This document shows, in pieces, positions 2,746 through 58,262 of a stretch of 64,000 nucleotides of DNA. The translations under genes and the position numbers were made by a program. How positions within the stretch are numbered: position 1 is the first letter of the stretch; each line of letters begins with the position of its first letter. The DNA is from Enterovibrio norvegicus DSM 15893. GTDB taxonomy: Bacteria > Pseudomonadota > Gammaproteobacteria > Enterobacterales > Vibrionaceae. The notes beneath the pieces were generated by a model. The model was given only the letters and a program-made list of their open reading frames with translations. It was not told the origin of the DNA and searched no databases. Location of the stretch: NCBI RefSeq assembly GCF_900115495.1, contig NZ_FOWR01000003.1, positions 1-64,000 of the forward strand, read 5' to 3'.

Positions 2746-3699
2746 TTAAAATAGTTCCTGCACGTCTTCAAGGTTCACTTCAAAGCCACGGTTTTCCATG
2801 TCCTCGTTGAAGCGCTTAATGTCACCCAGTGTTTTGAGGTATTTCTCTCTCGATTCAGCGTGTGCCCAGTAGTGTTCTTCTGCGCCTGATGAAATCATCT
2901 CGTTTCTCAAATTGCTGAGCACATCCAACACCTTCAAGTTGATCGCGGCAAGCGCAGCAAAATCTGCGTTGTTGATCTTGTGGAGGAAGCGTTTAAAAAA
3001 GGTGAGCAAATCTTCGGATTCATGAATCAAGTTTTCTGTCAGCAATGCACCCGCCGTTCTCGCCGTGCCTTTTAGGGAATGGTAATCAGTGAAAAACTGA
3101 TTCAACAATTCTTCGGGATCAGCTTCGTTCTTATCACTGCCTAGCGCTTCGATAGCCAAAATCACTAGCTCAAGCTCGATCTCTTTCTCTTCAGAGAAAA
3201 GGTCAATATAGTCGGAGAAATCATTGGACTGTATGAGGGAGAAGTCAGGGTCGAAATGCACGTTTGGCGCAGTTTCTTCTGCTTCACTTTCATTGAGGTC
3301 TAACAGCGTGTTCTCGGAAAATAGCGCAAAATCATTGTTGTTTTCTGCACGATAGACGTGATATTGCTTGAGTATTGGTAGCAACACGTGTGGCTCTATC
3401 AAGCCTTTTTCAACCAGCAAACGTCCCAATGTTGATCTGCGCTTTCCCACCTCTTCGTTAATGACGTCGAAGAAGTCGTTACGCCAAATGTCTAATCGAA
3501 TACACGCTGAACACAGATCGAGATGCTCGTCGTTTTGCAGCGACACGATGGACAAAAATTGTTCCGGCGTGATCAAGGCTTTTTCATAGAGGATATCCAA
3601 ACTGTTCGGAGTTTGACGAATTTGCTCGACCATCACATCTGCCAAATCTTTCGGCGAAATGATATCGAAATCCAACAAAAAACTGCCTAAGAGTTTCAT
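2746..3699 (-). CDS. HPt phosphotransfer protein of the chemosensory operon, with MshEN-like N-terminal repeats
   Basis: The protein has about 317 residues. Around residue 207 it carries HSLKGTAR, the HxxKG histidine motif of HPt domains, within a helical stretch (about 165-300). This supplies the phosphorylatable histidine that the adjacent CheA lacks. The N-terminal 120 residues hold two similar segments, LGSFLLDFDIISPKDLADVM and LGRLLVEKGLIEPHVLLPIL, each followed by a Gln a few residues on, which resembles the LGxxLxxxGxIxxxxLxxxLxxQ pattern of MshEN domains. Some MshEN domains bind cyclic di-GMP; binding here is inference. The ATG at 3699 is favoured over a GTG three codons upstream because CAGGTGG is correctly spaced. 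It is last in the operon, 64 bases after cheA. Confidence 0.75.
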   Translation of the reverse strand: MKLLGSFLLDFDIISPKDLADVMVEQIRQTPNSLDILYEKALITPEQFLSIVSLQNDEHLDLCSACIRLDIWRNDFFDVINEEVGKRRSTLGRLLVEKGLIEPHVLLPILKQYHVYRAENNNDFALFSENTLLDLNESEAEETAPNVHFDPDFSLIQSNDFSDYIDLFSEEKEIELELVILAIEALGSDKNEADPEELLNQFFTDYHSLKGTARTAGALLTENLIHESEDLLTFFKRFLHKINNADFAALAAINLKVLDVLSNLRNEMISSGAEEHYWAHAESREKYLKTLGDIKRFNEDMENRGFEVNLEDVQELF

Positions 3700-3763
3700 C
3701 CTAACCACCTGTTCCTGATGATGTTATTCATACTATAAAGAAAGACCACGAGACCAAACACTG

Positions 3764-5539
3764 TTAGTGATAGGCCTGCGCAAACTGAATGACTTTCTTC
3801 AGGTTGATCACCAAAGCCAAATCCCCATTACCTAGCACTGCTGCGCCAGCAAACACATCTTTCCCGTTCATTGAACGATCTAGCGGCTTAATCACGATAT
3901 CCAAGAATGCGCGAACATGATCGACAGGCAGCCCCCATTGCTGCCCACGATGCGTAAACACGATCACGCTGTGTCGCGTACCTTGTTGATAGGTTTGACG
4001 AAAAGCGTACTGTTCTGCCAGTTCACCCAGATATTCATGAGGCTCAACCAAGGGGATCACGTTGTTGTTTTGAAAAAGAAGTGCATGCCCGCTATCGAAC
4101 CTGACGCTTGAATTGTCTTCTTGGTTGCTAATGGCAACAATGTTGGCGATATCCGATGAGGGAATCGCATACGTCACATCCCCAATATCAAACAAGGCCA
4201 CTTTCAACGTCGCCATGGTGAGTGGGAAAATCAATGAGATTTCAGTGCCGACACCTTTCTCGGAGTGAATATCAATGGTGCCCTTGATGTCTTCCACTTT
4301 ACGTTTCACCGCGTCCATTCCTACGCCTCGACCAGAGAGCGCACTCACGTTTTCTGACGTCGATAAACCAGGATGGAAGATCAGCTCCAATATTTCTTTA
4401 TCCGTGAGTTGATGCCGATTTTCAAGCATGACTAATCCATTCGACACAGCCTTGCTCAATACTTTTTTTCTGTCGATGCCTTTCCCATCATCACAAATAT
4501 TAATAACAACTTTCCCGGCTTCGTTGTAGGCATGGATCAGGAGCCTTCCCACCATGGATTTGCCAGAAACTGCGCGCGCTTCTTGGGTTTCGAAGCCATG
4601 GTCTAATGCGTTTCTAACAAGATGTGTCAGCGGTTCATTAATGGCATCAATAACATTGCTGTCGAGTTCAATGTTTTCGCCAATGATTTCTACATCGACT
4701 TTCTTATCAAGCTCTTTTGAAAGATCCCGAACGATACGACGGTATTTACTCAGCAGATTGCCAATGGGCCGCATCTGCGTTTTCAGTAGATCATTGAGCA
4801 TGCCATCAGACACGGTCTTTAATTTGTTCGAGAGTTCTGTCAGTGCGAGGCTCTCTTGCTTCTCTGCAAAGTCAGCCAGGGTATTTCTGATCTGCACTAA
4901 TTCTTCGGAATAACTCATGAGATGTTCAAGCAGGTGCGATTTAACGCGGGTCGTTGGCTCAAATTTTGTCTGCGCCTCTGCGTCTTTGGTTTCTTTCACG
5001 CGTTTTTGGGTCAGCATTTGCGTGTGAGTGCGTGAGTCTCTACTTTCCCCATTGCCCTGAATCAACGAGCTAAGGTAATCAAGCTCACTCGATACGTCAT
5101 CATCAAAAACGGGGGCGTCTTCCATTAACGTTACGTCAATGCCCAGTGCATCTAATGCATAAATGGCTAGCGCATTTAACTCGTTCGTCATGTTCTCACG
5201 GCGTTCGGCAATGCCTGCCTCGCCGTCGTCCCCGCCAGCAAATAGCGCAGTTTCAGCGCGTGCCACTTCAATGATGCCATCCAACAACGCCAGCACATTT
5301 TCATCCGCGTCTTTTGATTCAACGCCCAAGAAATCCAGTAACGACACCGTTTGTTGAATCAGAAAATCAAGTTCGCTAAAGCGCGGATCATCCTTAGCAA
5401 CGTATGACAGTTTGTGGCTGAGGCCTGAAAAGTCTTGCTTGAGATGGCTGAGAGCAATGGGGAGCGATAGCAAATTTTCCACGCCCGACAAATCGTTAGC
5501 CACCTCACTCATAAGGGTATGCAAATCAGATTGAGGCAT
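3764..5539 (-). CDS. cheA: CheA-type histidine kinase with a degenerate P1 domain
   Basis: The 591 residues include a dimerisation region (about 200-275), a CheA-type ATPase with N-box HLVRNALDHGFE, G1 DDGKGID and G2 GRGVGMD, and a C-terminal CheW-like P5 domain. The N-terminal 130 residues are helical like a P1 domain but contain no HxxKG motif; the nearest text is LSHKLSYVAK. Phosphate is therefore predicted to pass to the separate HPt protein encoded next, an arrangement comparable to split CheA pairs such as Rhodobacter CheA3/CheA4. The ATG overlaps the TAA of the cheD-cheB gene by one base, implying translational coupling. No P2 domain is evident. Confidence 0.88.
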   Translation of the reverse strand: MPQSDLHTLMSEVANDLSGVENLLSLPIALSHLKQDFSGLSHKLSYVAKDDPRFSELDFLIQQTVSLLDFLGVESKDADENVLALLDGIIEVARAETALFAGGDDGEAGIAERRENMTNELNALAIYALDALGIDVTLMEDAPVFDDDVSSELDYLSSLIQGNGESRDSRTHTQMLTQKRVKETKDAEAQTKFEPTTRVKSHLLEHLMSYSEELVQIRNTLADFAEKQESLALTELSNKLKTVSDGMLNDLLKTQMRPIGNLLSKYRRIVRDLSKELDKKVDVEIIGENIELDSNVIDAINEPLTHLVRNALDHGFETQEARAVSGKSMVGRLLIHAYNEAGKVVINICDDGKGIDRKKVLSKAVSNGLVMLENRHQLTDKEILELIFHPGLSTSENVSALSGRGVGMDAVKRKVEDIKGTIDIHSEKGVGTEISLIFPLTMATLKVALFDIGDVTYAIPSSDIANIVAISNQEDNSSVRFDSGHALLFQNNNVIPLVEPHEYLGELAEQYAFRQTYQQGTRHSVIVFTHRGQQWGLPVDHVRAFLDIVIKPLDRSMNGKDVFAGAAVLGNGDLALVINLKKVIQFAQAYH

Positions 5540-7251
5540 TAACGCAGCTCCTTACTGACTATATCCTTACGACTGCGAGACAATTCGGGAATAGGTGTCA
5601 GGTACGCATCAAGGATGGCCTGTGCCATGTCTTGAATAGGCACCGTTTTGCAGACAGCGCCTAACTCGTTCGCAACACGCCCCATGCCGAACACCACGCA
5701 GCTTTTTTCATCTTGTACCAAGGTAAATGCGCCCTGTTCTTTTAAGCGTTGAAGCCCTTTTGCGCCGTCACTCCCCATCCCCGTTAGCAAGGCAGCGACA
5801 ATATGCCATCCCTGAATTTTGGCGGCGGAATTGAACAGGTAGTCCACGGAAGGTCGAAAACTATTGATGGGCAGATCTTGCGTGGTACGTACAACCACTT
5901 TGTCATCAGTCAACTGAACCAGCTTAATGTGATGGTTACCGGGCGCAAAATACACATGAGATCGTTCTAATATCTCCCCATCCACGGCTTCTTTGACGGT
6001 CAACCGACTTTTGGCGTTCAACCGTTGCACCAACGCTAGGGAATACTCTTCGGGAATATGTTGTGCAATGCAAATGGGCGGCATATTGCTTGGAAATTGC
6101 GTTAGCAGCACATCGAGTGCATCGACACCGCCCGTAGATGAACCCACGAGCACAACACCATCAAGCGCGTCCTTCCCACCAAGTACTCCTTCATGCTTGC
6201 CCTCTTTGCACTTGTTCTCTTTAGACGTGTTTACGTGAACTTTTTCGCCACTGAACTGAACTGCAGAGCGGGTCGGCATGTCAGTGTTTGAATCCTGAGC
6301 ATGCCGAGAAAGTGGTGCAGACAACGTGTTAAGGCCAATCGCAGAGGCGACCACCTTAGAAAGGTGCTGGTACGTCGACACAAGAATTCGATGTCCCACC
6401 GTTTGAGCCAAGGCACGATATTGTCCATCGAGCAGTGGCGTTACGCTGTCCGCCACCACCACCGTCGGTAACGGATGTTGTTCAACGGCTAACGCGAGTG
6501 AGGTTGGCGCTAACGATGCAGGAAGTGATGGTTCTGAAAGAGACGACGCTGAAAGAAACATGGCAGAAGAGAGGTATTGAGCGTCAACGATCAGTGCGTG
6601 TGGTGCTTGATGGAAAAAATAACGCCCGACACTCTCCAAGTCTGGCAACACATGAATATGAATACTGGGATCGTTGCCGAATGCCTTTTCGATCGTGGTA
6701 GTAAACACCTGACGAGCAGAAACGACATACACCCAACAAGGCGAATATTCTTGCACCGAACGCCGGTTTTCAGCCTCATGGGGAGCGTCATCAACAAACC
6801 GAAAATCAACATCGCCAATTTTTGGATTGAATCGAATCTGCCTACCTGAGTTGCCCCCGACGGAGAGTCCAACAATGGGGATGCCAAAGTGCGCGAGCGT
6901 CGCCAATGCCACCAGCACATTGCGATCGCCGATTTGTTGAGATTGCATGTATTCGCCATCATGGACTTGGCCGCCACCAATCACCCAAGCTCTCAGGTTT
7001 TCGGGGGTTGAAGAGGTATGTTTGAATTTTTTTAGCAAATTAGGGATCGCACAGGAACCATAATCATCGGCATGCTCACCCAAGGCGATAGCCTCTGGCA
7101 TAAGGGGCAGACGGTAGTGACACATTCCCCCGCTCTGTTTCTCTTGATCCCAAATGCACACGGTCACACACGTCCCCACCACAGCATGCAGCCAGATAGA
7201 TTCACGAAACACGAAGTGGAATTCCCCCGATCGAACCTGCACATCATTCAT
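5539..7251 (-). CDS. CheD-CheB fusion: receptor deamidase plus methylesterase with a degenerate receiver
   Basis: Residues 1-155 form a CheD domain with the catalytic pair Cys28 (GTCVTV) and His45 (CHYRLP). Residues about 170-310 have a receiver-like alternation (VYVVSA.., ALIVDAQYL, PTVVVAD) but lack the acidic DD pair. Residues 360-550 are a CheB methylesterase with Ser in GSSTGG (about 370), His in AQHIP (about 397) and Asp in GMGSDGAKG (about 494). CheD deamidates receptor glutamines and CheB demethylates receptor glutamates; here both act from one chain. The ATG at 7251 overlaps the cheR stop by 8 bases; a longer frame from 7314 would run far into cheR. A Ser/Thr/Lys-rich linker precedes CheB. 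Confidence 0.85.
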   Translation of the reverse strand: MNDVQVRSGEFHFVFRESIWLHAVVGTCVTVCIWDQEKQSGGMCHYRLPLMPEAIALGEHADDYGSCAIPNLLKKFKHTSSTPENLRAWVIGGGQVHDGEYMQSQQIGDRNVLVALATLAHFGIPIVGLSVGGNSGRQIRFNPKIGDVDFRFVDDAPHEAENRRSVQEYSPCWVYVVSARQVFTTTIEKAFGNDPSIHIHVLPDLESVGRYFFHQAPHALIVDAQYLSSAMFLSASSLSEPSLPASLAPTSLALAVEQHPLPTVVVADSVTPLLDGQYRALAQTVGHRILVSTYQHLSKVVASAIGLNTLSAPLSRHAQDSNTDMPTRSAVQFSGEKVHVNTSKENKCKEGKHEGVLGGKDALDGVVLVGSSTGGVDALDVLLTQFPSNMPPICIAQHIPEEYSLALVQRLNAKSRLTVKEAVDGEILERSHVYFAPGNHHIKLVQLTDDKVVVRTTQDLPINSFRPSVDYLFNSAAKIQGWHIVAALLTGMGSDGAKGLQRLKEQGAFTLVQDEKSCVVFGMGRVANELGAVCKTVPIQDMAQAILDAYLTPIPELSRSRKDIVSKELR

Positions 7252-8137
7252 CAACGGCTCTCCCTGATTTGGGCTTCCGATAGACAGAGACATCAACCAA
7301 CTCCAAGCCAACATCCATGTGCTGCAATGATTCCGTTAGCCCAACAAAGAAAAGGCCACCCGGTTGCAATTGGCTTACTAACGCACGAACCACTTTTTCG
7401 CCCGTGCTAGGAGGGAAATAGAACAACACATTTCGTAGGAAAATATAGTGAAACTGAATGCCGAATTTTTCCGGATAGTGGATGAGATTATGCTGCCTAA
7501 ACTTGATATTACGCTTCAGCTGTTCCGCCAGCGTAAACGTGTTCCCATTGCGTTTTTCACGTTCAATAAACTGATATTGAAACAGCGTTGGAATATCTTC
7601 TCTTAGCTCATCGGCGTATTCCGCTCGGGCACACATTTCAAGACGCTGAGTATCAACGTCGGTTGCCAGAATGCGATAGTCAAAATGAGGGTGTTCACTT
7701 TTTATGGCTTCGCATTGCATCGCTAAAGAGAAGGCTTCTTCCCCACTGGAACATGCTGCTGACCAAATGAAGGTTTTTTCGGTTCGCGGCTGAGTGAGAA
7801 TGTCATGTTTCAGCACATTGAAGTGGCGTTGTTCGCGAAAAAAAGAGGTTTTGTTTGTTGTGACAACATTGGTAAAGGCACCCAGTTCGCTGCCATTGTC
7901 TTGCTGTAACACCTGCATGTATTGGCGGAATGAACGCAACTGAAGCGCGCTCAAGCGCTTATATAAACGCATTTCCAACATACTACGTTTTTCGTTTTCC
8001 AGCTTTATACCAACATGCTGTGAGATCAACGCCGAGAAATACTCGAATTCCTGTTGGGTCATCTCTTCCATGTTGCCGGCAGAAAGCGGCTCGACAAAAG
8101 AAGGCGTCGTGTGATCATGACTGTCGGAATGCATCAT
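7244..8137 (-). CDS. cheR: Chemoreceptor methyltransferase CheR
   Basis: CheR transfers methyl groups from S-adenosylmethionine to receptor glutamates. The protein shows the N-terminal helical domain (about 30-90, with GIKLENEKRSMLEMRLYKR), the Rossmann core beginning WSAACSSGEEAFSLAM, and the late motif HYIFLRNVLFYF. It has about 297 residues, slightly longer than usual because of a polar N-terminal extension. The start at 8137 (MMHSDS) is preferred because GGGGG lies 5 bases upstream; 8149 is an alternative ATG without one. It sits between the receptor and cheD-cheB genes, so all adaptation enzymes are co-transcribed. Confidence 0.9.
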   Translation of the reverse strand: MMHSDSHDHTTPSFVEPLSAGNMEEMTQQEFEYFSALISQHVGIKLENEKRSMLEMRLYKRLSALQLRSFRQYMQVLQQDNGSELGAFTNVVTTNKTSFFREQRHFNVLKHDILTQPRTEKTFIWSAACSSGEEAFSLAMQCEAIKSEHPHFDYRILATDVDTQRLEMCARAEYADELREDIPTLFQYQFIEREKRNGNTFTLAEQLKRNIKFRQHNLIHYPEKFGIQFHYIFLRNVLFYFPPSTGEKVVRALVSQLQPGGLFFVGLTESLQHMDVGLELVDVSVYRKPKSGRAVDE

Positions 8138-8158
8138 ACGCGCCCCCATAGCAACACG

Positions 8159-10321
8159 TTAAAGCCGATTCCAAGCGGCCTGATTATCGTTGCCTTCTTT
8201 TTCTTTCGGCACGTCAGGAGCCAAATGACTCGCGTTATCTATTTCACTGCGAATGCTTGCCAAAGATTGCACTTCATAGTGCTCTCGAAGGTCATCACTC
8301 ACCGTGTTCTCAGGTTCATCGGTTGATGGGGTGTCATGCCCCTGAAGAAAGCTATTCAGGTTGAGCACCATGCGGTTGAGATCTTCAGCTTGCCTGTTCA
8401 GTTCAGAGCTGGAACTCGACGCCTGGTCTGCAATGGACGCCGCATGTTGTGTCGCTTTATTGATTGATTCAACCGCATTGCTGATTTCTTGAATGCCTCG
8501 CGCTTGCTCGTTAGAGGCATCAAATATTTTAGAGGCTCCCTCAAGCACTAAATTCGATTGTTTTTTGGTTTCTTCAACAATGATCGAACCTTTCTCAACA
8601 CGGCAGGTGTTCTCTTTCGCAATGCTTTCCGCTTCGCAAATACTCTTTTTCACAATGGCAGAAATATCCGTGGCTGCTTTGCCACTCATTTGAGCGAGAT
8701 TGCCGACTTCCTGAGCCACGACGGCAAACCCACGTCCATGTTCACCAGCGCGTTCCGCTTCTACTGATGCATTAAAGGAGAGCAATTTCGTTTGAAAGAC
8801 GATTTCATCAATGATGGTAGTTTTAGCGCCAATTTCTCCGATGATCTTCACCAATTCGGTAATTTTATGGTTAGACTCAGAAATCTTCTGCATAGCGTCA
8901 TCCAAGCCCGTCATTTTCTCACCCACTTCTTTTGACAAGTCTTTGGATTCTTCGGCGTATTGCACGTTGATACGCACCATGCCGGAGATTTCTTCTGTGC
9001 TCGCCGAGGTTTCTTCAACGGAACTTGCTTGGCGATTAGATATTTGAGACAAGTTCTGTGACACGTTATCGATGTTGTTTGCCACCGTCGCCACTCGCCC
9101 TGCACTCTCTGCCATCCGTTTCACGACACTGCTGAACGCCACACTCAACTCAGACAACTCCTTCGAGCTGAAAGATTTCAGACCACCAAAAATAAGTTGG
9201 AAAGGACCCATAATGGAGCGACTTAACCAAAAGGCGATGGGAATAGAAATCAGGACAGCCGCCAACACCACCAAGATCAGTGTATTTTTCTTCGACGCGA
9301 TCGCCGTATCAAGTGCGGCCTGACGCTCTATCAAAAGCGCTTCTTCATGTTCAACGAACGCGCGCATTTGATCCCTGAATGCGTCAAAGAACATCTTCCC
9401 TCGTTCCTGCGCGACCAAGTTCGAAATATCGTCCATCGTTTTCGATCCAGCAATGCGTCGACGTAATTCGATATTTTTATCTGACACTTGCACGCGCCAC
9501 GCGGACACTGCCGTTCCAATTTCACTTAGCCTTTGTAACTGCGCCGGGCTGCTGCTCACTTTTGCTTTCAGATCATTGAGCAGAAAATCAATGTGATTCC
9601 GACCGTCTGTGTAAGGAATGAGATAAGCTTCTTTCCCCGTCAGCAAGTAGCCTTGCATCCCGGTTTCCATGTCTAACACGGTCTTTTCTATTGCGGTAAT
9701 TTGTTCACGTATCTTGTAGGTCTGTTGCAGAGCGAAGAACACTTCAGTGGTGCCGTCACCGTCTTGCGAATTCTCAAGGGCGGCTTCTTTTCGAACAAGT
9801 TCGGCGTCCTCTTCGGTGCTAAAAGCACCCAGTAATGACCGTATGCGATCTAGGTAGACCCTGCCTTTGTCCTCACCCACTTCCACAGCCAAATCGTTCA
9901 TGGTCTGTGCATTGCCAATATCGCGCCGGAGCGCAATGGCATTTTCTGTTACCGAGCGCTGCCAATCGCCAATCGTTGTTTCTGCCTGCTCCAATAACGC
10001 CACTTGAGGTGGGTTATCACTGACGGATACTTTTAACGCCTTGATTAAGCTATCAAAGCGTACTTTTCCATCATTATAAGGCGCGAGAAAGGATTCGTTA
10101 CCCGCAAGCAAATAACCGCGCATGCCTGTTTCCATATCAACGGCGGCTTTCTCTATATTCAGTGCGTTATGAATAACGCGGTGGGTGTGGTCGACCCAAT
10201 CGTCGGTTTCATTGAGGTGTTGAATGCTACGAACACTCAGCACACCTAACGTGACCAAAAAAACGAGGCTTACCGTGTTTCCTAGTGTGATTTTTGCGCG
10301 AAGTGAGAGGTTCTCAAACAT
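8159..10321 (-). CDS. Methyl-accepting chemotaxis protein with tandem CHASE3 domains
   Basis: The 720 residues comprise a first membrane helix (about 10-30), two CHASE3-like modules in tandem and a second helix near 345-365, then a cytoplasmic signalling domain. The modules share the signatures [14 protein letters not shown] and [14 protein letters not shown], each with a following PY.DG. The hairpin tip reads [20 protein letters not shown] and [15 protein letters not shown]. The HAMP region is short or degenerate. CHASE3 is an extracytoplasmic sensor of unknown ligand; tandem copies suggest a single long helical sensor. There is no C-terminal NWETF-type tether. It is the only receptor in the operon, 4 bases from cheW, and is probably the cognate input. 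Confidence 0.88.
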
Positions 10322-10324
10322 GGT

Positions 10325-10894
10325 TTATCCCTCTCTACTGTCTTGTTGAGGGGCTATTGCAACATGATGACCAATGATGTCTAAGTCATCAGGGTCGAGC
10401 ACTTTGTTGATATCCAGCAGCAACACCAAGTTATCTTTGGCTTTCGCGACACCGGTAATGTAATCGCGCTTTATGCTATGTGATATCTCCAATTCCCGTT
10501 CGATTTGCTCTTCATCAAAACCAATCACTTCATTCACATCATCAACAATGCTACCTATGGTCAATGCGTTCACATCGCTGATAACAATAGAGGTTCTTTT
10601 GGCTTCATATTCTGTTTCTTCTAGGCCCAACTTCAGCCTCAAATCAATGACTGAAATGATGCGACCACGAAGATTAATCAACCCCTTAAAGAAAGGCGGC
10701 ACATGGGGAATGGGCGTGACTTTCACCAAGCCAATCACTTCTTTTACCGAAGAGAGAGGAATGCCGTATTGCTCGTCCGCCAATGAAAAAATGAGATTTT
10801 TCTGGGCGACGCGTTTTAACGCGTTGGGATCTGATGCAGCATGGCTAGCATAGTGCGGTATCCGCGAGGCTTGCTGCTCCAATACCTTACTCAT
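10325..10894 (-). CDS. cheW: CheW coupling protein
   Basis: CheW links receptors to CheA at the membrane array. The protein has the CheW fold signatures LIFSLADEQYGIPLSSVKEVI, PFFKGLINLRGRIISVIDLR and DNLVLLLDINKVL, with about 30 extra residues at the N-terminus. The ATG at 10894 follows GAGGTG at good spacing; the GTG at 10903 overlaps that site and is less likely. It lies between the response regulator and the receptor in the same operon. Confidence 0.9.
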   Translation of the reverse strand: MSKVLEQQASRIPHYASHAASDPNALKRVAQKNLIFSLADEQYGIPLSSVKEVIGLVKVTPIPHVPPFFKGLINLRGRIISVIDLRLKLGLEETEYEAKRTSIVISDVNALTIGSIVDDVNEVIGFDEEQIERELEISHSIKRDYITGVAKAKDNLVLLLDINKVLDPDDLDIIGHHVAIAPQQDSREG

Positions 10895-10991
10895 TGATTG
10901 CACCTCAAATCAGAAGTTCAATGCACGCCTACACAATCATGGATCTCACGGATTAAAATAACAGGCGCATTATGTCATGTTGAGCGCGCCC

Positions 10992-11546
10992 TCAGACGAG
11001 CCCAATATTGACAAAGCCTTGAGAGTTCGACATTCCCTCAAATATGCTGGCGACTTTTCGACTGGATATCGGCTTTCTCATGTAACCGGATGCGCCGTAA
11101 TATTCCGCCACTTTGATGGGATCAAGTCTTAGCTTTTCACACCCTGTCAAAATGGAATTGATTTTTCCTTCCACCACTTCGTTATCAATCACGCGATGTG
11201 CGATCTTATCCAACAACCCCATCTTCTCTTCAATGTCAGCCTCGATTTTGCGTTTCTCTGCCTGACTGATGGAGACGATGCTTTCACTGGATATCACAAA
11301 GATATTTTTTACTTTCACATTCGCTTTCAGATACACCAACGCGGACAAACCATCCATGTTTGGCATTCTCAGGTCCGTTAAAACAAGGTCAACGTCTGGG
11401 TATCGTTCCACTAACGCAATGAGTTCTTGTCCATCTTTCGCTTGACCAAGAATTTCAAATGGCCCGAATTGGTCTTCAACCGCTGCGAGCGATTTGATGA
11501 TGCTATCGCGCATATCCGCCATGTCGTCTGCAAAAATAATTTTCAT
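10992..11546 (-). CDS. CheY-like response regulator with a helical insertion
   Basis: This is a single receiver domain of 184 residues, where about 125 is usual. The acidic pair is D7/D8, the phosphoacceptor D58 (DLVLTDLRMPNMDG), the switch Ser is in FVISSES (about 86) and the conserved Lys is in YMRKP (158). Between strand 4 and the Lys-bearing strand 5 lies an insertion of about 55 charged helical residues (roughly 92-148). There is no output domain. It heads the chemosensory operon and is the probable CheA/HPt target. The insertion alters the face that normally docks to targets, so its output may not be the flagellar motor. Confidence 0.85.
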   Translation of the reverse strand: MKIIFADDMADMRDSIIKSLAAVEDQFGPFEILGQAKDGQELIALVERYPDVDLVLTDLRMPNMDGLSALVYLKANVKVKNIFVISSESIVSISQAEKRKIEADIEEKMGLLDKIAHRVIDNEVVEGKINSILTGCEKLRLDPIKVAEYYGASGYMRKPISSRKVASIFEGMSNSQGFVNIGLV

Positions 11547-12400: not shown

Positions 12401-12435
12401 GGAGACATCTTAGGCTCACACTCTAGGAAATGTCT

Positions 12436-14574
12436 ATGTCTCGCCTTTTAACAGCGGCTCTACTCACAACGTTGTCGCCTCTTGCGTTCTCGACACCGTT
12501 CGACACATGTCCAAGTAAAGCCTACTTGTTTCAATCGAAACCGGTGCAGGTGCACAGCGTTAACCTAGCTACAGGTTTGACAACGCTCATCACCAACGAC
12601 GTTGGTTTAACGAACGAAGGCATTAATGCTGTCGGCTTTGATAATGGTACGGGTGACGGCGAAGGCTTCGAGCACAAATACATTTATGGCTTTGAGAAAA
12701 GCCGTAAGAAAGTGGTTCGTCTAGACAAAGACTTTAATGCAGATGTGATTGAGGTGACGGGTCTTCCGAACTTCAGCTTCTACGTGGGTGATGTATACGA
12801 CCGTTACTACTACCTTTATGGCCCAGGCACCGGTTTCTATAAAATCGATTTAACACCGTTAGACACCGATCCAGATGCCACATTAGAGGCAGAAACCATT
12901 TCGACAGATGCCCCATTAGGTATTACTGATTTTGCATTTCATCCAGGCAACAACAAACTTTATGCAGTGAAAAATACCAACGGCAAGTTGTTCGAAATAG
13001 ATACCGACACAGGTACGGCAACCGTAATTGGTAATACGGGAAAAACAGGCACATTTGGTGCCGGTTACTTCGATGTAAACGGTTACTACTACATATCCCG
13101 CAATAGTAACGGAGACATATTCCGTATCGACCTTTCTGATACCGACAATATCAATAGCCAAAATGTCGAAGCGGAGCACTTTGCATACGGCCCGAATTCA
13201 AACCAAAACGACGGCGCGCGTTGTGAAGATGCTCCCGTCATCGATGAAGATTCAACGATAGATTTCGGTGACGCGCCAGACAGCTACAAAACCCTCCTTG
13301 ATTCAAACGGCCCACGCCATGAAATCAACACAGGTTTCTACCTAGGGTCAGTGGCGCCAGACAGCGAGGGCGATGGTTTTGTATCGCCACTGGACGACAA
13401 CAAGGCGGGCCTTGCCGATGAAGACGGTGTGGGGTTTGTTACCGCATTAGAAATTGGCAAAACAGCGCTCATTTCTGTTCAAGCATCTCAGGCTGGTCGT
13501 CTTTCTGCATGGATTGACTGGAACGGCGATGGCGATTTTGAAGACAGCAACGAAAGAATCGTGAACAACAGCCTGTTGTCTGCAGGCACAAACACTGTTT
13601 CCGTCTCCGTTCCTTCCGGTGCAACCGCAGGTTCAAGCTGGTCTCGTTTCCGCTTTTCAGAGGATGGCGGGTTAAGCTTCGATGGCGGTGCAACCACCGG
13701 TGAAGTGGAAGACCATCCTGTCACCATCATGGAAGACGGCTCCTCACTTCGCCATTATCCAAGCGAAAGTGGCTATGCCACTGTGGCCTTTGAAGATAAC
13801 TGGCCGAAAGAAGGTGACTACGACATGAATGACGTGGTTATTCGCTTCCGCATCACCGAAACCTTAAACGAAGACGATGAAATCACACGTATTCTCATCA
13901 AAGGCTACCTCGCAGCCTATGGTGCGGGCTATCACAATGGTTTTGCGTTCCGTCTTCCGGGCTTAAATCGAGACGACATCAACGCCGCAACCACACAAAG
14001 CCACAATATGGTACTTCAAGAAACCAATGGCCTAGAGTCCATTTCTAACGACGCCATTTTCATCGTATCGGATGACTTAAAACAGAAACTGCCTGCAGGC
14101 TGCATGTACTACCGCACGGCGCAACACTGCCAAGAAGCCATCTCATTTGAGTTTGAAATTGATGTCTACTTCAACGAAGGCGTCGACACCAGCAGCCTTG
14201 TCGCCATGCCCTATGACCCGTTCATGTTCGCCACACCTGGCGCCTATGTGCGCGATGGACTTTGGTATAACCCTGGTCGTGGCCTAGAAATACACTTGGC
14301 TGACCAAGCCCCTACCGAGCAATTTGATACCTACTGGTATGGATGGTGGTCAGATGACAGTAACCCTGGTGCAGATCGTTACTTCAAAACAAGTGATAAC
14401 CACCCTTGGGCATTGTTAATCAACGATGCGTGGAGCTGGCCCCGTGAGCATGTCGACTTGGTTGATGCCTACTCGGAATTCGCAGGCTATGCAGAATCCA
14501 GCGGTGACAACAACCAACTTTGGTATCTCTTAGAGAAAGCCACGGCTGACAAAACCTATTCTTCTGAGGAGTGA
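12436..14574 (+). CDS. Secreted LruC-domain protein with propeller-like N-terminus and GEVED domain (copy 1)
   Basis: A signal peptide ends near the TLSPLAFS|TPFD stretch. Residues about 25-270 contain repeats of the type IYGF, VNLATG, FHPGNNKLYAV and DTGTATVIG, typical of a beta-propeller. Residues about 275-430 are a GEVED domain: DFGDAPDSY, DWNGDGDFED, TTGEVEDHPV. From about 435 to the end is a LruC domain, with YATVAFEDNWPKEGDYDMND and the aromatic DTYWYGWWSDD. These are exported proteins of unknown function, probably on the surface or in a matrix; acidic DG motifs suggest calcium binding. AGGA at 12425 favours the ATG at 12436 over 12430. The stop is 5 bases before the lipoprotein gene. 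Confidence 0.82.
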   Translation: MSRLLTAALLTTLSPLAFSTPFDTCPSKAYLFQSKPVQVHSVNLATGLTTLITNDVGLTNEGINAVGFDNGTGDGEGFEHKYIYGFEKSRKKVVRLDKDFNADVIEVTGLPNFSFYVGDVYDRYYYLYGPGTGFYKIDLTPLDTDPDATLEAETISTDAPLGITDFAFHPGNNKLYAVKNTNGKLFEIDTDTGTATVIGNTGKTGTFGAGYFDVNGYYYISRNSNGDIFRIDLSDTDNINSQNVEAEHFAYGPNSNQNDGARCEDAPVIDEDSTIDFGDAPDSYKTLLDSNGPRHEINTGFYLGSVAPDSEGDGFVSPLDDNKAGLADEDGVGFVTALEIGKTALISVQASQAGRLSAWIDWNGDGDFEDSNERIVNNSLLSAGTNTVSVSVPSGATAGSSWSRFRFSEDGGLSFDGGATTGEVEDHPVTIMEDGSSLRHYPSESGYATVAFEDNWPKEGDYDMNDVVIRFRITETLNEDDEITRILIKGYLAAYGAGYHNGFAFRLPGLNRDDINAATTQSHNMVLQETNGLESISNDAIFIVSDDLKQKLPAGCMYYRTAQHCQEAISFEFEIDVYFNEGVDTSSLVAMPYDPFMFATPGAYVRDGLWYNPGRGLEIHLADQAPTEQFDTYWYGWWSDDSNPGADRYFKTSDNHPWALLINDAWSWPREHVDLVDAYSEFAGYAESSGDNNQLWYLLEKATADKTYSSEE

Positions 14575-15352: not shown

Positions 15353-17491
15353 ATGCGCACCTATTTGAAGCTTCTGTCACTCGCCATGCTTTTCCCTACG
15401 GCGGTTATCGCCGATGAGCCATTTGACACTTGCCCTAGCAAGGGATTCTTGTTTCAAAGCTCGCCAAGTAAAGTGTTTGGCATAAACCTTGCCACAGGCG
15501 GTTATTCAGAATTGGCCGCAACCACAGGATTAAACTCGCACATCAACGCAGTGGGCTTTAACGATCCTGACCGCTACATTTATGGCTTCGATCACGACAA
15601 TGCAAATGTTGTTCGTATTGGCAAGAATTACACGGGTGAACAGGTGGCTGTTTCTGGGTTACCGGAAGGTATAAATTTCATCAGTGGTGACGTTCAAGAC
15701 AACATCTATTACCTCCACCGACGTGAATTGGGATTGTTTAAGATCGACCTGTCGCCGCTCGCCACAGACCCTTCCACCACATTGACGGCGGAGGCTATGA
15801 CTTCAAACATGGGAGTCATACGGGCGTCTGACGTCGCAATAAGCCCCATTGATAATAAGATGTACCTTGTCGATAACAATGACTATGACCTCTACCAAGT
15901 CGACCTAACCACAGGTGACACCAACCTGGTCACCAGTATGATCCCACAGATTGGTGTCCCCGCAGGTGGTTTTGGGGCGATCTATTTTGATGTGAATGGC
16001 AACCTTTACCTTTCCCGAAATTCCGATGGCAGCATTTTTCGCGCTAACCTGTCAGATACTGACGACATCGCACTAGGTGACATTGGCATAGAGTTCTTCG
16101 CGACCGGTCCAGCCTCTAATCAAAACGATGGAGCGCGCTGCGCAAATGCACCAGTGATTGATGAAGATTCCACGATTGATTTTGGCGATGCACCAGACAG
16201 TTACAAAACCTTGCTGGCATCAAACGGTCCTCGACATGAAATCAATACCGGTTTCTACCTTGGTACAATCGCACCAGACAGCGAAGGCGATGGTTTTGTT
16301 TCGCCATTAGATGACAACAAAGCAGGCCTTAGCGATGAAGACGGTGTAGGGTTTGTTACGGCATTGGAGGCAGGAAAAACATCACTGATATCTGTAAATG
16401 CATCGCAATCCGGTTATCTCTCCGCATGGATAGACTGGAATGGTGATGGCGATTTTGAAGACAGTGGTGAAAATATCATCGACAATAACCTGCTTTCATC
16501 AGGTGCGAACACGTTAAGTGTTGCTGTGCCTGCCGATGCTGAAATAGGGTCATCTTGGTCACGATTCCGCTTTTCAGAGGATGGTGGTCTCGACTTCTTT
16601 GGCGGTGCAACCACCGGTGAAGTGGAAGACCACCCTGTCACCATCATGGAAGACGGCTCCTCACTTCGCCATTATCCAAGCGAAAGTGGCTATGCCACTG
16701 TGGCCTTTGAAGATAACTGGCCGAAAGAAGGTGACTACGACATGAATGATGCGGTTATTCGCTTCCGTATCACCGAAACCCTAAACGAAGATGATGAAAT
16801 CACGCGTATTCTCATCAAAGGCTACCTCGCAGCCTACGGGGCGGGCTACCACAATGGTTTTGCCTTCCGTCTACCGGGCTTAAACCGAAACGACATCAAC
16901 GCCGCAACCACACAAAGCCACAACATGGTACTGCAAGAAACCAACGGCCTAGAATCCATTTCTAACGAAGCCATTTTCATCGTATCGGATGACTTAAAAC
17001 AGAAACTGCCTGCAGGCTGTATGTACTACCGCACGGCGCAACACTGCCAAGAAGCCATCTCCTTTGAATTTGAAATTGATGTGTACTTCAACGAAGGCGT
17101 CGACACCAGCAGCCTCGTCACCATGCCCTATGACCCCTTCATGTTCGCCACACCCGGCGCCTATGTGCGCGATGGACTTTGGTATAACCCTGGTCGTGGC
17201 CTAGAAATACACTTGGCTGACCAAGCCCCTACCGAGCAATTTGATACCTATTGGTATGGATGGTGGTCAGATGACAGTAACCCTGGTGCAGATCGTTACT
17301 TCAAAACAAGTGATAACCACCCTTGGGCATTGTTAATCAACGATGCATGGAGCTGGCCCCGTGAGCATGTCGACTTGGTTGATGCCTATTCGGAATTCGC
17401 AGGCTATGCAGAATCCAGCGGTGACAACAACCAACTTTGGTATCTCTTAGAGAAAGCCACGGCTGACAAAACCTATTCTTCTGAGGAGTGA
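15353..17491 (+). CDS. Secreted LruC-domain protein (copy 2)
   Basis: The protein has 712 residues with the same plan as copy 1. The signal peptide ends near AVIA|DEPFD, followed by a propeller-like region (about 25-265), a GEVED domain (about 268-428) and a LruC domain to the end. The propeller part has diverged substantially from copy 1 (for example DKMYLVDNNDYDLYQVDLTT here), while the LruC part is almost identical. The two copies probably differ in what they bind but keep a shared C-terminal module. AGGGA precedes the ATG by 8 bases. The last four bases overlap the frame of the lipoprotein leader. Confidence 0.82.
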   Translation: MRTYLKLLSLAMLFPTAVIADEPFDTCPSKGFLFQSSPSKVFGINLATGGYSELAATTGLNSHINAVGFNDPDRYIYGFDHDNANVVRIGKNYTGEQVAVSGLPEGINFISGDVQDNIYYLHRRELGLFKIDLSPLATDPSTTLTAEAMTSNMGVIRASDVAISPIDNKMYLVDNNDYDLYQVDLTTGDTNLVTSMIPQIGVPAGGFGAIYFDVNGNLYLSRNSDGSIFRANLSDTDDIALGDIGIEFFATGPASNQNDGARCANAPVIDEDSTIDFGDAPDSYKTLLASNGPRHEINTGFYLGTIAPDSEGDGFVSPLDDNKAGLSDEDGVGFVTALEAGKTSLISVNASQSGYLSAWIDWNGDGDFEDSGENIIDNNLLSSGANTLSVAVPADAEIGSSWSRFRFSEDGGLDFFGGATTGEVEDHPVTIMEDGSSLRHYPSESGYATVAFEDNWPKEGDYDMNDAVIRFRITETLNEDDEITRILIKGYLAAYGAGYHNGFAFRLPGLNRNDINAATTQSHNMVLQETNGLESISNEAIFIVSDDLKQKLPAGCMYYRTAQHCQEAISFEFEIDVYFNEGVDTSSLVTMPYDPFMFATPGAYVRDGLWYNPGRGLEIHLADQAPTEQFDTYWYGWWSDDSNPGADRYFKTSDNHPWALLINDAWSWPREHVDLVDAYSEFAGYAESSGDNNQLWYLLEKATADKTYSSEE

Positions 17492-43414: not shown

Positions 43415-43909
43415 CGTTTCGCTAAGCTCCTTGCTGCGCATGTCTCTATGTTTTCGACGTAGAGCAACTATTTTTTCAATTCAGCGTTACACCTGCTAGC
43501 CAACAAACTCTCGCTGAAGAACTATCTTGACGTTGTTTGGCTATAGAATGACGTTTCTATTGGAAAATTCACAGAATTGTCCTTACGCCTGCGCCACTTT
43601 CCAACAATGGTTCTCATTCTTCAAGCAATTGCATCAGCTTGTCTCTTAGCGGTGCGACGTCATCGCAATACGCGACAACTGGGGAGGGAAATTCCGTCCA
43701 ATGGTGTTTTTACAAACAGTAAAAAAGGTAGGCAAAACGGCTGAAAAATTCTGTTGACTTCGCAATAGCCTTACGCCCTTCACACCATACTCAACATGTT
43801 GCGCTAAAAGAGAAATTTCTTTCTACACTTGTTAGGAGTATTTAGCCCTAAGCACACCGAAAACATAGGATTTTGCGTGTTTAGGCATACATCATTCGCG
43901 ATAAGGGAT
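43415..43909. other. Intergenic region upstream of the poly-HAMP receptor
   Basis: No gene or clear regulatory site was found in these 495 bases. TTGACG at about 43530 and TTGACT at about 43753 are possible -35 elements without good -10 partners. No sigma-28 motif typical of chemoreceptor genes was seen. Confidence 0.5.
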
Positions 43910-46900
43910 ATGACTGTGCTGGAAGATTGGAAACGCCAATTCGAAAATTTTGCATTGGTGAAAAAAATGACCATTATTTTGAGTCTGATTGGCCTTATTC
44001 CCACAGTGATCACGGCGTTAATCGGACTGTACAGCTCTTCCACATCGCTTGAAGAACAAAAGGTCGAGTCGTTAAAAGCGATTGCGCACCTGAAAAGCGA
44101 CACCTTAGAAAATTACTTTGAAAACACCGAAACCATCTTACTGAATATCGCCAAAAGCCCGCTCACCATGTCAGCAGCACCCTCGCTCATCAATGCCTTT
44201 AAGCTCTATCCTGTTGACGTAGAAGATGAAGCTAGCCGCGCAGAATCGAACGCACAACTCAAAGCATTTTATGACACTAAATTTCTCGCTAAATTGGAAA
44301 AAACCGGGGCCAATACCGTCGACACCGATGCGCTCGTTGACGCTATCAGCCAAAAAACAAAAAGCCTTCAACACGCCTATATTTCGGGAAATCATTACCC
44401 TCTCGGACAAAAAGACCAGCTAAGAAAAGCGGGCTCGACGGATTACGACTATGCGCACCGCCGCGTTCACGTTAACTTTCGGCAATACGTGAAAGATTTC
44501 AATTTGTACGATCTTTTCATTGTCGATCTTTCGTCAGGCGACATTGTTTATTCTGTCTTTAAAGAAATCGATTTTGCTACCAACTTAAAAACGGGGCCGT
44601 TTAAAGATTCAGGGTTAGGGGTGGCTTACAAACAATTGTCTGAGAGCATCATTCAAGGGAAACCCCTTGAAACCTTGTTTGTGGACTATCAAAAGTACCT
44701 TCCTTCCTACGATTTACCTGCCAGTTTTATTGCCACCCCCATTAACATCCACGGTGTACCCAAAGCCGCATTGATCGTCCAACTGCCCATTGAGAAAATC
44801 ACACAAGTGATGAGCCGCAATTATGGTTTAGGTGACACTGGAGAATCCTATCTCGTTGGACCAGACAAGCGCTTGCGCTCAGATACCTTCCATGAAGGTG
44901 GACTGACAGTCGTGTCGTCTTTCCGTAAGAATAAAACCATCAACACTGATGTGGTGAATAATGCGATTGCGAGTGATGAGAGAGAATCTGAGGTTGGGCT
45001 TCATGGTCACAACTATGCCAATGAATCTACGCTCTCCGTTTACCGTAAAGTGCCCGTCGGCAATGCGGAGTGGTTAATCGTTGTTGAGCAAAAAACCACG
45101 GAGGCACTCTCAGCAATTTATTCACTCGGTCTGATCTATTTGCTCGTGGTGATCGTGCTGCTTTCGTCGGTTTTGTTTGTTTCCAAGACGTTTGGTCGCC
45201 TTATTTCTCGCCCTATTCAAGATCTCTCCCATTTCATTCTTTCATTGCGTGAACATTGGCGTTTCTCTGAACGCGCGCAAGTGCACAGCAAAGATGAAAC
45301 AGGACAAGCTGCCGATGCGTTGAACACCATGCTAGGCTCACTGAATGATGCCGTTCGTGACATTTCATCCACCATGGACAGCCTGGCTAAGGGGGATTTC
45401 TCACAACGCGTCACCTCCGATCTCACTGGCGATTTGCAGGTAATTAAAACCAGTATCAATGAATCCGCGCAAGAACTCGACACCACGGTAAAAGACATTG
45501 GTGAGGTGATGTCCCATATCAAACAGGGGGATTTCAGACACCGTGTGACGTCCAACGCCAGCGGGCAATTAGAGGCACTAAAAGATCAAGTGAATGATTC
45601 CGCCCAAAGCACGGCAGATTTCATTGCCGACACCAAACAAGTGATGACAGCGTTGCAAGTGGGCAACTACAACACGCGCATTACCGCAAATGTGTCTGGT
45701 GAATTGGCCGAACTGAAAGCGGCTATCAACCAATCTATCGTGAACAGCGAATCGGTGATCAATAACATTTGTAGCGTAATGGCAGCCATGAGCGAAGGGC
45801 AATTTGGTCAAACCGTTCATGTAGAAGCCAGTGGTAAACTCAATGAAATGAAGTGCGCGGTGAACACGGCAAGTACATCAACCAACGCCGTCATCGCCAG
45901 TATTTCTTCCGTCATGAGCGAAGTATCGGTGGGTAACTTTAGTGCACGCTGTGATACCAACAGTAAAGGGGACTTACTGAACCTAGCCACCGAAGTGAAC
46001 CGAACCGCTGAAAACCTAGAAACCATTCTTTCGCATACCAGACAGGTACTCAATCACCTCTCTCGCGGTAATTTAACCGAATCTTTCACACTTGATGTCA
46101 CGGGTGATTACGACACGTTGAAAGAAGGCATCAATCAAACCATGTTGCACCTTGCTAGCATGCTGGAAGAAATTCAAACCTCGGCAACCACAGTGAACGA
46201 GCGTTCAGAAGAAACCTATGGCGAAGTGTCTAGTTTAAACACCCAACTCGACGCGCAAGTCAGAGGGCTGAAAGGCGTTTCTTCAATGATGGGAACCATG
46301 CAAGACACAATCAATGGCACCCTAACCCACGCCAACGAATCAGTGACAGTGTCACAAAAGGCGTTGGCACACACCAAAGAAAATGAAGTCTTAGTGAGGC
46401 AGATTGAAGATGCCATGGTGTCTATTACGGAGTCGAGTAATAAGATGCAGCAAATCATTGGCACCATTGAAGGCATTGCATTCCAAACCAACCTGCTCGC
46501 GCTCAATGCCTCTGTTGAAGCCGCGCGTGCTGGCGAACAGGGCAGAGGGTTCTCTGTGGTCGCAAGTGAAGTGCGCGAACTGGCTCAGCGTAGCGCCAAT
46601 GCCGCCAAGGAAATATCTCTGTTGATCAATGAATCTGATGAGCGTATTACGCGAGGGGCTGCGCAAGTCAATTTGTCTGGGGATTTGCTCAAGAAGATCA
46701 CGGCATCCAGCAATGAAGTGTGTGCGAACTTCGAAAACGTAAACCAATCGATCCGTACCCAGTTCAACCAGGTCAATGATGTGTCTGCGAGCATCAAAGC
46801 GGTTAACGACAACATTCATCAATGCGCACAAATCCTCAACCGTATTAACGACAATATGGACCAAGTTAATGGTCAGGCGGAGAATTTAAACACCATGATC

Positions 46901-46918
46901 GGGCGTTTTAACTACTGA
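43910..46918 (+). CDS. Chemoreceptor with a Cache sensor and a chain of seven HAMP units
   Basis: The protein has 1002 residues. It has an N-terminal membrane helix (about 20-40), a large periplasmic Cache-like sensor (to about 400) and a second helix near 415-440. One canonical HAMP (to DETGQAADALNTML) is followed by six repeats, each with a G[DNQ][FYL] turn and a hydrophobic heptad: GDFSQRV, GDFRHRV, GNYNTRI, GQFGQTV, GNFSARC, GNLTESF. The methyl-accepting tip reads [20 protein letters not shown]. The start at 43910 follows AAGGG closely; an internal ATG at MTIILSL is an alternative. No che genes adjoin it. Confidence 0.87.
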   Translation: MTVLEDWKRQFENFALVKKMTIILSLIGLIPTVITALIGLYSSSTSLEEQKVESLKAIAHLKSDTLENYFENTETILLNIAKSPLTMSAAPSLINAFKLYPVDVEDEASRAESNAQLKAFYDTKFLAKLEKTGANTVDTDALVDAISQKTKSLQHAYISGNHYPLGQKDQLRKAGSTDYDYAHRRVHVNFRQYVKDFNLYDLFIVDLSSGDIVYSVFKEIDFATNLKTGPFKDSGLGVAYKQLSESIIQGKPLETLFVDYQKYLPSYDLPASFIATPINIHGVPKAALIVQLPIEKITQVMSRNYGLGDTGESYLVGPDKRLRSDTFHEGGLTVVSSFRKNKTINTDVVNNAIASDERESEVGLHGHNYANESTLSVYRKVPVGNAEWLIVVEQKTTEALSAIYSLGLIYLLVVIVLLSSVLFVSKTFGRLISRPIQDLSHFILSLREHWRFSERAQVHSKDETGQAADALNTMLGSLNDAVRDISSTMDSLAKGDFSQRVTSDLTGDLQVIKTSINESAQELDTTVKDIGEVMSHIKQGDFRHRVTSNASGQLEALKDQVNDSAQSTADFIADTKQVMTALQVGNYNTRITANVSGELAELKAAINQSIVNSESVINNICSVMAAMSEGQFGQTVHVEASGKLNEMKCAVNTASTSTNAVIASISSVMSEVSVGNFSARCDTNSKGDLLNLATEVNRTAENLETILSHTRQVLNHLSRGNLTESFTLDVTGDYDTLKEGINQTMLHLASMLEEIQTSATTVNERSEETYGEVSSLNTQLDAQVRGLKGVSSMMGTMQDTINGTLTHANESVTVSQKALAHTKENEVLVRQIEDAMVSITESSNKMQQIIGTIEGIAFQTNLLALNASVEAARAGEQGRGFSVVASEVRELAQRSANAAKEISLLINESDERITRGAAQVNLSGDLLKKITASSNEVCANFENVNQSIRTQFNQVNDVSASIKAVNDNIHQCAQILNRINDNMDQVNGQAENLNTMIGRFNY

Positions 46919-56627: not shown

Positions 56628-58262
56628 ATGAGAGCCCTTTCAATACGGCAACGGTTATCTCTGATCATTGTGATATCAGTACTGTCGTTAATTTCAGTCA
56701 CCATAGTATCTCTCATGCTCAAACACGAGAACATGTTGGATGAGAGAAAAAACCAAATTCAAGTGCTTGTTGAAACCGCCGAAACGCTGGTTACCAAACT
56801 CCACCAACAAGCACTAGCGGGTGACATCTCTATGGAAGAAGCCAAACAGCGCGCCATTAGTGCTTTAGATGCCATGCGCTACGGTGATAACGGCTATTTC
56901 ATGATTTATGACATGAACTCAATCATGGTTCATCATCCGATCACTGCCAGCCTTATCGGTAGAGACCTCACATCTCTTCAGGACGTCAATGGTGTTTACA
57001 TCATTCGTGAACAAGTCGATATGGCTAAAAACGGTGGCGGCTTTGTCACCTACCACTGGAAAAAGACAGGATCAGATGAAACGCCCTACCCTAAAATCGC
57101 GTATTCACTTCCTTTTACTCCGTGGGGCTGGGTACTAAACACAGGGTTATATGTCGATGACTTGGACGCGACATTTTATCAAGACGTACAACGTTTGCTG
57201 CTTCTGGTTGCCCTGATCGCACTGATGCTCATCGGTCTATCGATTACCATTGCCCGCAGTATCACTTCGCCGTTAAACCGTTTAAAAACGCTGTTACAAA
57301 CCGCAGAGGTAAACCTTGATTTGACGGTTCGTTCTCGTCTAAACGGAAATAATGAAATTACTGATTTGGGCCGTGCGTTTAACAATCTCATGAACGCATT
57401 TGAAGAAACGTTACGTGGCATATCACAAGGTGCGAATCAGCTTAATCAGGAGGTTTCTAAGCTCGAAAACCTTTCTAATCACATTGTTGGCGCTTCCACT
57501 CAACAATCGCAAGATACAGGTAGCATTGCTGCCTTGGTTGAACAGTTTGCTGAGAGCATCAACGTCATTTCTCACGATGCAGATAAGATGAAATCGCTGT
57601 CTAACGAAAGTGGTGTGCAAGCGAAGCAAGGTGCCTCCACCATGCGCGCAACCATTTCTAATATGGATCAGATGTCAGAAAAGTCTCAGCGTTCGAGTTC
57701 TGCCGTGTCTGAACTTGATCATCACTCTAAAGAGATTGAAGGCATAATCAGCGTGATTAACGATGTCGCAGAGCAAACCAACCTGCTGGCGCTAAACGCA
57801 GCCATTGAGGCCGCTCGCGCGGGCGACCAAGGGCGAGGATTTGCTGTCGTGGCGGATGAGGTAAGAAATCTCGCAGTAAGAACGTCAGATTCTACAAAAC
57901 AAATAGCCTCGACGATTCAGGAACTTCGAACGGGCATCGAAACCACCGTCGGTCATATTGAAGAAAGCGTGACCGTGGTGAACAGCAACATGTCACAAAC
58001 CCATGAAGCAGAACAACGCGTTCGCGAGATGCACCAAATGTCGCAGGATCTTATTCACATCATCGACGATGTTTCTGGTGCTTTGCATGAACAATCTAGC
58101 GCAAACCGCGAGCTTGCCAATCGTATCCAACATATCGCAGACATGGCATCAAATAACCACCGCTCCGCATCTGACGTGCAAGGGTCTGCGCGAGAGGTAA
58201 ATGGACTCGTCCGTAAATTCAACCAATCTGTGAGTCGATTTAAGATTTCACAAACGATTTAA
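56628..58262 (+). CDS. Chemoreceptor with a single Cache sensor
   Basis: The protein has 544 residues. Membrane helices lie at about 8-30 and 190-212, and the periplasmic part is an sCache_2 domain: [22 protein letters not shown]....[30 protein letters not shown] (about 210-265) and a signalling domain with [20 protein letters not shown] follow. sCache_2 receptors commonly sense small organic acids. There is no C-terminal methylation-enzyme tether. An ordinary sigma-70 promoter is assumed; no sigma-28 motif was found. Confidence 0.9.

Follow-up and report, generated by a model that had tools for sequence, protein, structure and literature searches.

Introduction

How can a chemotaxis kinase pass on a signal when it has no phosphohistidine of its own? 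This question is raised by a locus of Enterovibrio norvegicus DSM 15893, in which a CheA with a probably decayed P1 domain lies next to the gene of a separate HPt-domain protein. The window is the whole stretch of DNA that was analysed, namely positions 1 to 64,000 of contig NZ_FOWR01000003.1 (assembly GCF_900115495.1), and the genome that carries it comprises 5.45 Mb on 99 contigs. A sequence-only reading of the window had proposed a split kinase, in which phosphate flows in trans from CheA to the HPt protein and adds a diffusible relay step to a single-receptor array.

Split kinases of this kind have been described. Operons that pair a P1-less CheA core with an Hpt domain encoded by its own gene were reported by Berry 2023 (PMC10782961), whose authors infer a bipartite system, and an earlier survey quoted in PMC3591291 counted 11 split versus 470 complete CheAs. 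In the CheA3/CheA4 pair of R. sphaeroides, CheA4 lacks P1, its partner has the phospho-His and neither protein autophosphorylates alone (PMC3591291; PMC10782961). Here, we describe the Enterovibrio locus, which very probably encodes a split (bipartite) CheA, with the kinase in one protein, the phosphohistidine on that of the neighbouring gene and the receiver of the operon taking the phosphate.

Results

Organization of the locus

Seven genes run on the minus strand from 11546 to 2746, in the order receiver protein, CheW, CHASE3 receptor, CheR, CheD-CheB fusion, CheA and HPt protein (Table 1). At four of the six junctions the genes overlap or are separated by at most 10 bases, the gap between the receiver and CheW genes is 88 bases and the CheA stop lies 64 bases from the likely HPt start (ATG at 3699); this spacing suggests one transcript. 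An ATG stands at the matching position in 12/12 relatives (starts were picked by a script favouring ATG), and the HPt protein is unlikely to begin with the GTG at 3708. Promoter-like sites (10 versus 12.7 expected) and terminator-like sites (13 versus 9.5, sd 2.8) are not clearly beyond chance. An Rfam scan of the window and a plasmid search gave no match.

Table 1. Features of the seven-gene locus, in window positions.
Feature	Position	Strand	Basis
Stand-alone receiver protein, likely phosphate acceptor	10992..11546	-	Pfam Response_reg
CheW adaptor	10325..10903	-	Pfam
Chemoreceptor, CHASE3 (2 stretches) and MCPsignal	8159..10321	-	Pfam
CheR methyltransferase	7244..8149	-	Pfam CheR, CheR_N
CheD-CheB fusion, middle part without recognisable receiver	5539..7314	-	Pfam CheD and CheB_methylest
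CheA, 591 aa, P3-P4-P5 core without phosphorylatable P1	3764..5539	-	Pfam, motifs, solved cores
Probable decayed P1-like helical region, CheA residues 1-131, no conserved His	5147..5539	-	hhalign, AF2, motif count
HPt-domain protein, 317 aa from ATG at 3699	2746..3708	-	Pfam Hpt; 12 other genus genomes
MshEN-like repeats, four helix pairs, HPt protein residues 3-118; c-di-GMP motif largely lost	3346..3693	-	NF053729, Foldseek, residue counts
HPt domain, residues 161-260; H207, K210, H226, E229 (numbered from MKLLG)	2920..3219	-	Pattern counts

The active-site residues of the receiver (D7, D8, D58, S86, Y155 and K158) are present in 13/13 copies, and the window copy is 97 percent identical to that of locus L028. 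About 50 extra residues, well conserved, lie between S86 and K158, as judged against the spacing in CheY. A receiver profile was searched in 369 genomes at E<=1e-8, with the 5 to 9 best candidates of each genome scored; outside its own genome all matches were partial, the longest covering 2-139 of 184.

In the CheD-CheB fusion, no Response_reg was matched by Pfam at E<=1, and in the between-domain stretch at the receiver's place the usual acidic pair is absent by eye. Therefore, phosphorylation control of its methylesterase appears doubtful. In a relative (L038, genome G014), the CheD-CheB frame seems truncated or internally deleted at about 7352-7939, with the other operon genes kept.

The array was described as single-receptor by the sequence-only reading, which holds for the operon only. 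Two further chemoreceptor-like ORFs (named by inspection) lie on the plus strand of the window at 43829-46918 and 56628-58262, thus the receptor of the operon is not the sole one in the genome, and the second che cluster of the genome is also adjoined by receptor-like genes. Two plus-strand ORFs at 12430-14574 and 15353-17491 (714 and 712 aa) have, by eye, near-identical C-terminal parts and diverged N-terminal parts, and perhaps represent a duplication with gene conversion.

Distribution of the short CheA and the HPt protein

Of the 18 Enterovibrio genomes compared, 13 encode the short CheA together with the HPt protein, the two genes adjoining and in the same order. The order and orientation of all seven genes is the same in the 12 other HPt-bearing genomes, with only part of CheD-CheB matching in L038. 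Both proteins are missing from four good genomes (G004, G007, G012 and G017), whose CheA matches score like ordinary CheAs. The remaining genome, G006, is 87 percent complete with broken frames, has no HPt match and fragmentary CheA matches, and cannot be judged either way. Apart from these counts, the 2.1-Mb genus genome G004 carries one good CheA and a disrupted remnant of a CheA of uncertain type, interrupted by four in-frame stops (G004:C1:652006-652533), and G001 contains one short CheA frame of ordinary type (361 aa). Motif, start-codon, His-column and dN/dS counts use all 13 copies; the alignments A1 to A4 omit L030 (G011), and A3 and A4 also omit L035 and L036.

Outside the genus, the class, phylum and order samples were searched with only the 5 to 9 top-ranking candidates of each genome scored; these samples overlap in part and cover a fraction of each group. 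Within the wider order, CheA frames other than that of the window have at least 672 aa among the matches listed, except in G598 (396 aa) and G179 (455 aa). On the N-terminal side of these two frames the contig ends after 22 and 223 bases, and because the contig ends are so close by, they look like assembly cuts. No match over both halves of the HPt protein was found outside the genus in the class sample (369 genomes) or the phylum sample (388 genomes; own genome included in each), or with the single HPt protein as query in 181 relatives outside the genus. The matches obtained there are confined to one half of the protein, either Hpt or MshEN.

The window genome has two other CheAs with ordinary P1s, one at a flagellar locus on contig C25, with flhF-, fleN-, fliA- and cheZ-like neighbours (named by inspection), and one in the second che cluster on C79. 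The short-CheA locus is separate from the flagellar CheA locus of the genome.

An intact kinase core behind a probable P1 remnant

The kinase and CheW-like domains of the short CheA had been called intact from the sequence, and the searches bear this out. Pfam places H-kinase_dim at residues 196-247 (E 0.0016, under its cut-off), HATPase_c at 304-441 (8e-13) and CheW at 447-585 (4e-14), four kinase motifs are present in 13/13 copies, and the core resembles CheA cores of solved structure both in fold and in sequence, with E-values as low as 5e-90 for the latter. P4 is constrained, with a dN/dS of 0.027 between the window and L028. Six close named relatives found in the CheA search are Enterovibrio, and the seventh match, from a planctomycete, is a weak kinase match. 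For L032 and L033 the script chose TTG as the CheA start codon, and these two starts are uncertain.

The N-terminus, previously described as P1-like and without HxxKG, agrees with that description. HxxKG occurs in residues 1-192 of 0/13 copies, no alignment column has His in more than 6/13 copies, and the full P1 active-site pattern is found in 0/13. At the position of the P1 histidine the window has Ser, and four of the 13 copies (L034 to L037) have His, without the K, H and E partners. Pfam gave no Hpt match at E<=1 in 12/12 aligned copies including that of the window, although HMMER filters can drop weak matches. Structure prediction, which the sequence-only reading had proposed as a check, gave five helices for residues 1-131 in an AF2 model of low confidence (mean pLDDT 59). 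An hhalign comparison of the 13 N-termini with 31 canonical P1 domains (all 31 loci tried, none dropped, including the two ordinary CheAs of the window genome) scored 30.0 with a probability of 35 percent, versus 17.0 for the reversed profile and a maximum of 20.6 among 150 column shuffles, 0/150 of which reached 30.0. A comparison of the N-terminus with the domain of the HPt protein itself gave 13.7, which is shuffle level. Thus, HxxKG and a conserved His are missing, yet the resemblance to P1 exceeds that of every shuffle, and for these reasons the N-terminus is most likely a lost, decayed P1. Between the window and L028, dN is 0.164 in the N-terminal region and 0.041 in P4. The N-terminal dN/dS is 0.17 in the sole pair with unsaturated dS; most pairs have a dS close to 1 or higher, and the resulting ratios are rough. 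By these rates the region appears weakly constrained, not free.

A P1-type active site on the HPt protein

The product of the next gene carries the canonical HSLKG that had been read from it, and Pfam Hpt matches 12/12 aligned copies. For the window protein this match scored just under the cut-off of 24.6 (E 1.3e-4, 22.6 bits) when searched singly and over it (25.2 bits) in the whole-genome search. The pattern of H, K at +3, G at +4, H at +19 and E at +22 is found in 13/13 HPt proteins and in 31/31 canonical P1s. Of the 20 Hpt matches in the window genome, 17 exceed the Pfam cut-off, and three of these 17 have the pattern, namely the HPt protein and the two ordinary CheA P1s; the HPt protein aside, it occurs in 0/14 non-CheA domains. 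We assume roles for the Lys and the second His of the pattern. Glu67 of CheA touches the phospho-acceptor His45 (PMC3904827).

Because the pattern is confined among these 17 domains to the HPt protein and the two CheA P1s, the HPt domain is, judged from its active-site residues, a displaced CheA P1-type domain. A relay-type HPt identity was considered and rejected on the same pattern. Against the P1 profile, hhalign scored 36.5 over 41 columns only, a score that 0/150 shuffles reach, and the best solved match of the HPt profile is a CheA P1 (1tqg), a weak one (E 0.067). The model of the HPt protein is of low confidence (mean pLDDT 51), and Foldseek returned 18 matches to it, most of them unrelated and none at E<=0.001.

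The MshEN-like front half

In the same low-confidence model, four helix pairs make up residues 1-118 of the HPt protein. The NCBIfam model NF053729 (MshE-related c-di-GMP motif) matches 12/12 copies with a best E of 4.4e-11; against its cut-off of 38 bits, L034 passes (42.4), and L032 (34.6), L038 (31.3) and the window copy (30.5) remain under it. Among the mostly unrelated Foldseek matches are 5htl (MshE with c-di-GMP; probability 0.75) and the GSPII-B domain of PilF (8pfa/8pdk), all without significance, at E-values of at least 3. The likeness to the MshEN domain (PMC5013675) extends to 24-residue repeats, a 5-residue linker and profile similarity to the 53-residue domain.

The MshEN motif consists of two RLGxx(L/V/I)(L/V/I)xxG...Q stretches, with R9/L10/G11/Q32 and R38/L39/G40/Q61 (PMC5013675). 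While the MshEN domain has both motif arginines and the second LG, the HPt protein has lost them in 13/13 copies (R9, R38, L39 and G40 each 0/13); kept are L10 (9/13), G11 (13/13), Q32 (12/13) and Q61 (13/13). Even the relaxed motif given in PMC5013675 is absent, with no R/K/P/N at position 3 and no Gly at 34. According to the same paper, a GspE with several key residues changed has lost c-di-GMP binding, and perfect conservation of the motif is possibly unneeded for binding (PMC5013675). A c-di-GMP receptor was considered as the main reading of this half and is disfavoured by the loss of most motif residues. A gammaproteobacterial locus (L098, 796-2340) has a receiver gene whose downstream neighbour encodes a protein with a comparable MshEN-like module at its N-terminus and a weak CheX match, which is a different receiver-linked use of these repeats.

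Discussion

In the proposed model, P4 sits in a CheA whose own P1 has most likely decayed and is without a conserved phospho-acceptor, and the phosphohistidine is located on the protein of the neighbouring gene, in a domain with CheA-P1 active-site residues. Given this decayed P1 and the intact P1-type HPt next door, P4 most likely phosphorylates the HPt protein in trans, at H207, from where the phosphate would pass to D58 of the stand-alone receiver. The split model is well supported, since the two proteins occur together, the P1 of CheA has decayed and the HPt protein has an active site of P1 type, and to this extent the sequence-only reading has been strengthened. Its diffusible relay and single-receptor array are unsupported. 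The conserved N-terminal module could equally dock the HPt protein to a partner and, because the HPt protein would replace P1, an added relay step is unneeded: phosphate would flow from ATP to His to Asp as in ordinary CheA.

Alternatively, the HPt protein might serve in a phosphorelay and receive its phosphate from some unrelated hybrid kinase, with CheA inactive or acting only through other CheAs. Donors for such a relay probably exist, as most of the 17 above-cut-off Hpt domains belong to long frames, which possibly encode hybrid kinases. However, none of the 14 non-CheA domains has the P1-type pattern, the HPt protein is present where the P1-less CheA is and adjoins it in 13/13 cases, and a CheA with four kinase motifs in 13/13 copies and so constrained a P4 does not look inactive, all of which makes this explanation unlikely. 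Potentially, the short CheA could instead phosphorylate the P1s of the two other CheAs and merge the receptor signal into the flagellar or the second cluster. Both CheAs have a canonical P1, and a liberated Hpt domain has been reported as fully functional (cited in PMC10782961), but such a route would leave the strictly conserved neighbouring HPt purposeless and would require co-localisation of the arrays, and we consider it very unlikely. That CheA autophosphorylates on another N-terminal residue, with the HPt protein as an added downstream step, is hardly credible: the N-terminus has persisted, probably as a helical domain and weakly constrained, and some copies have a His in it, but no His is shared by more than six of the 13 copies and neither HxxKG nor the active-site pattern occurs in any. 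Under the split model, the HPt protein may possibly also take phosphate from other kinases, which is compatible with its sequence.

The MshEN-like module most likely docks the HPt protein to CheA, to the array or to the receiver, and is not a c-di-GMP sensor. It is tempting to speculate that it gates the HPt domain, so that binding of a nucleotide or a protein decides whether the phosphohistidine is presented to CheA, but we hold this only as a tentative and rather improbable option. If it were true, the output would be a logical AND of the receptor signal and a second cytoplasmic input, and the latter would act on the phospho-acceptor itself, not on the kinase.

The split CheA arrangement is already documented, a point that the sequence-only reading left unmentioned, and the Enterovibrio locus is a clean case of it. 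It shares the P1-less CheA core and the separate Hpt gene in the operon with the cases of Berry 2023; section 10 of that article names no species for the split cases, 'Vibrio' and 'MshEN' are absent from its main text, and its tables may include Enterovibrio (PMC10782961). With CheA3/CheA4 it shares a P1-less kinase and a phospho-His on the partner protein. In contrast, CheA3 is also a phosphatase and includes a CheW-like domain (PMC3591291), and the Enterovibrio HPt protein has MshEN-like repeats instead; Pfam found no CheW (P5) domain in it (0/12 aligned copies). A P1 remnant is retained on the Enterovibrio CheA, whereas none is mentioned for CheA4 in the accounts of that pair cited here (PMC3591291; PMC10782961). 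MshEN has already been linked to CheA, CheX and receiver domains, and a separate Hpt protein is not mentioned in the parts of that paper on which we draw (PMC5013675). In the literature covered, including parts of PMC2829493, PMC3904827, PMC10333796 and PMC6773444, no report of the locus or of a separate Hpt-MshEN fusion was found. As far as we found, the new element is an Hpt domain on its own protein, joined there to MshEN-like repeats in which the c-di-GMP motif is largely lost, beside a retained and probably decayed P1.

Conclusions

The locus offers a small, naturally occurring system in which to ask why some CheAs are split. With a decayed P1 on the kinase, an intact displaced P1 adjoining it and 13 diverged copies, trans-phosphorylation is testable with few proteins. 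If the MshEN-like module does gate the HPt domain, a chemosensory array would take a second input at its phospho-acceptor.
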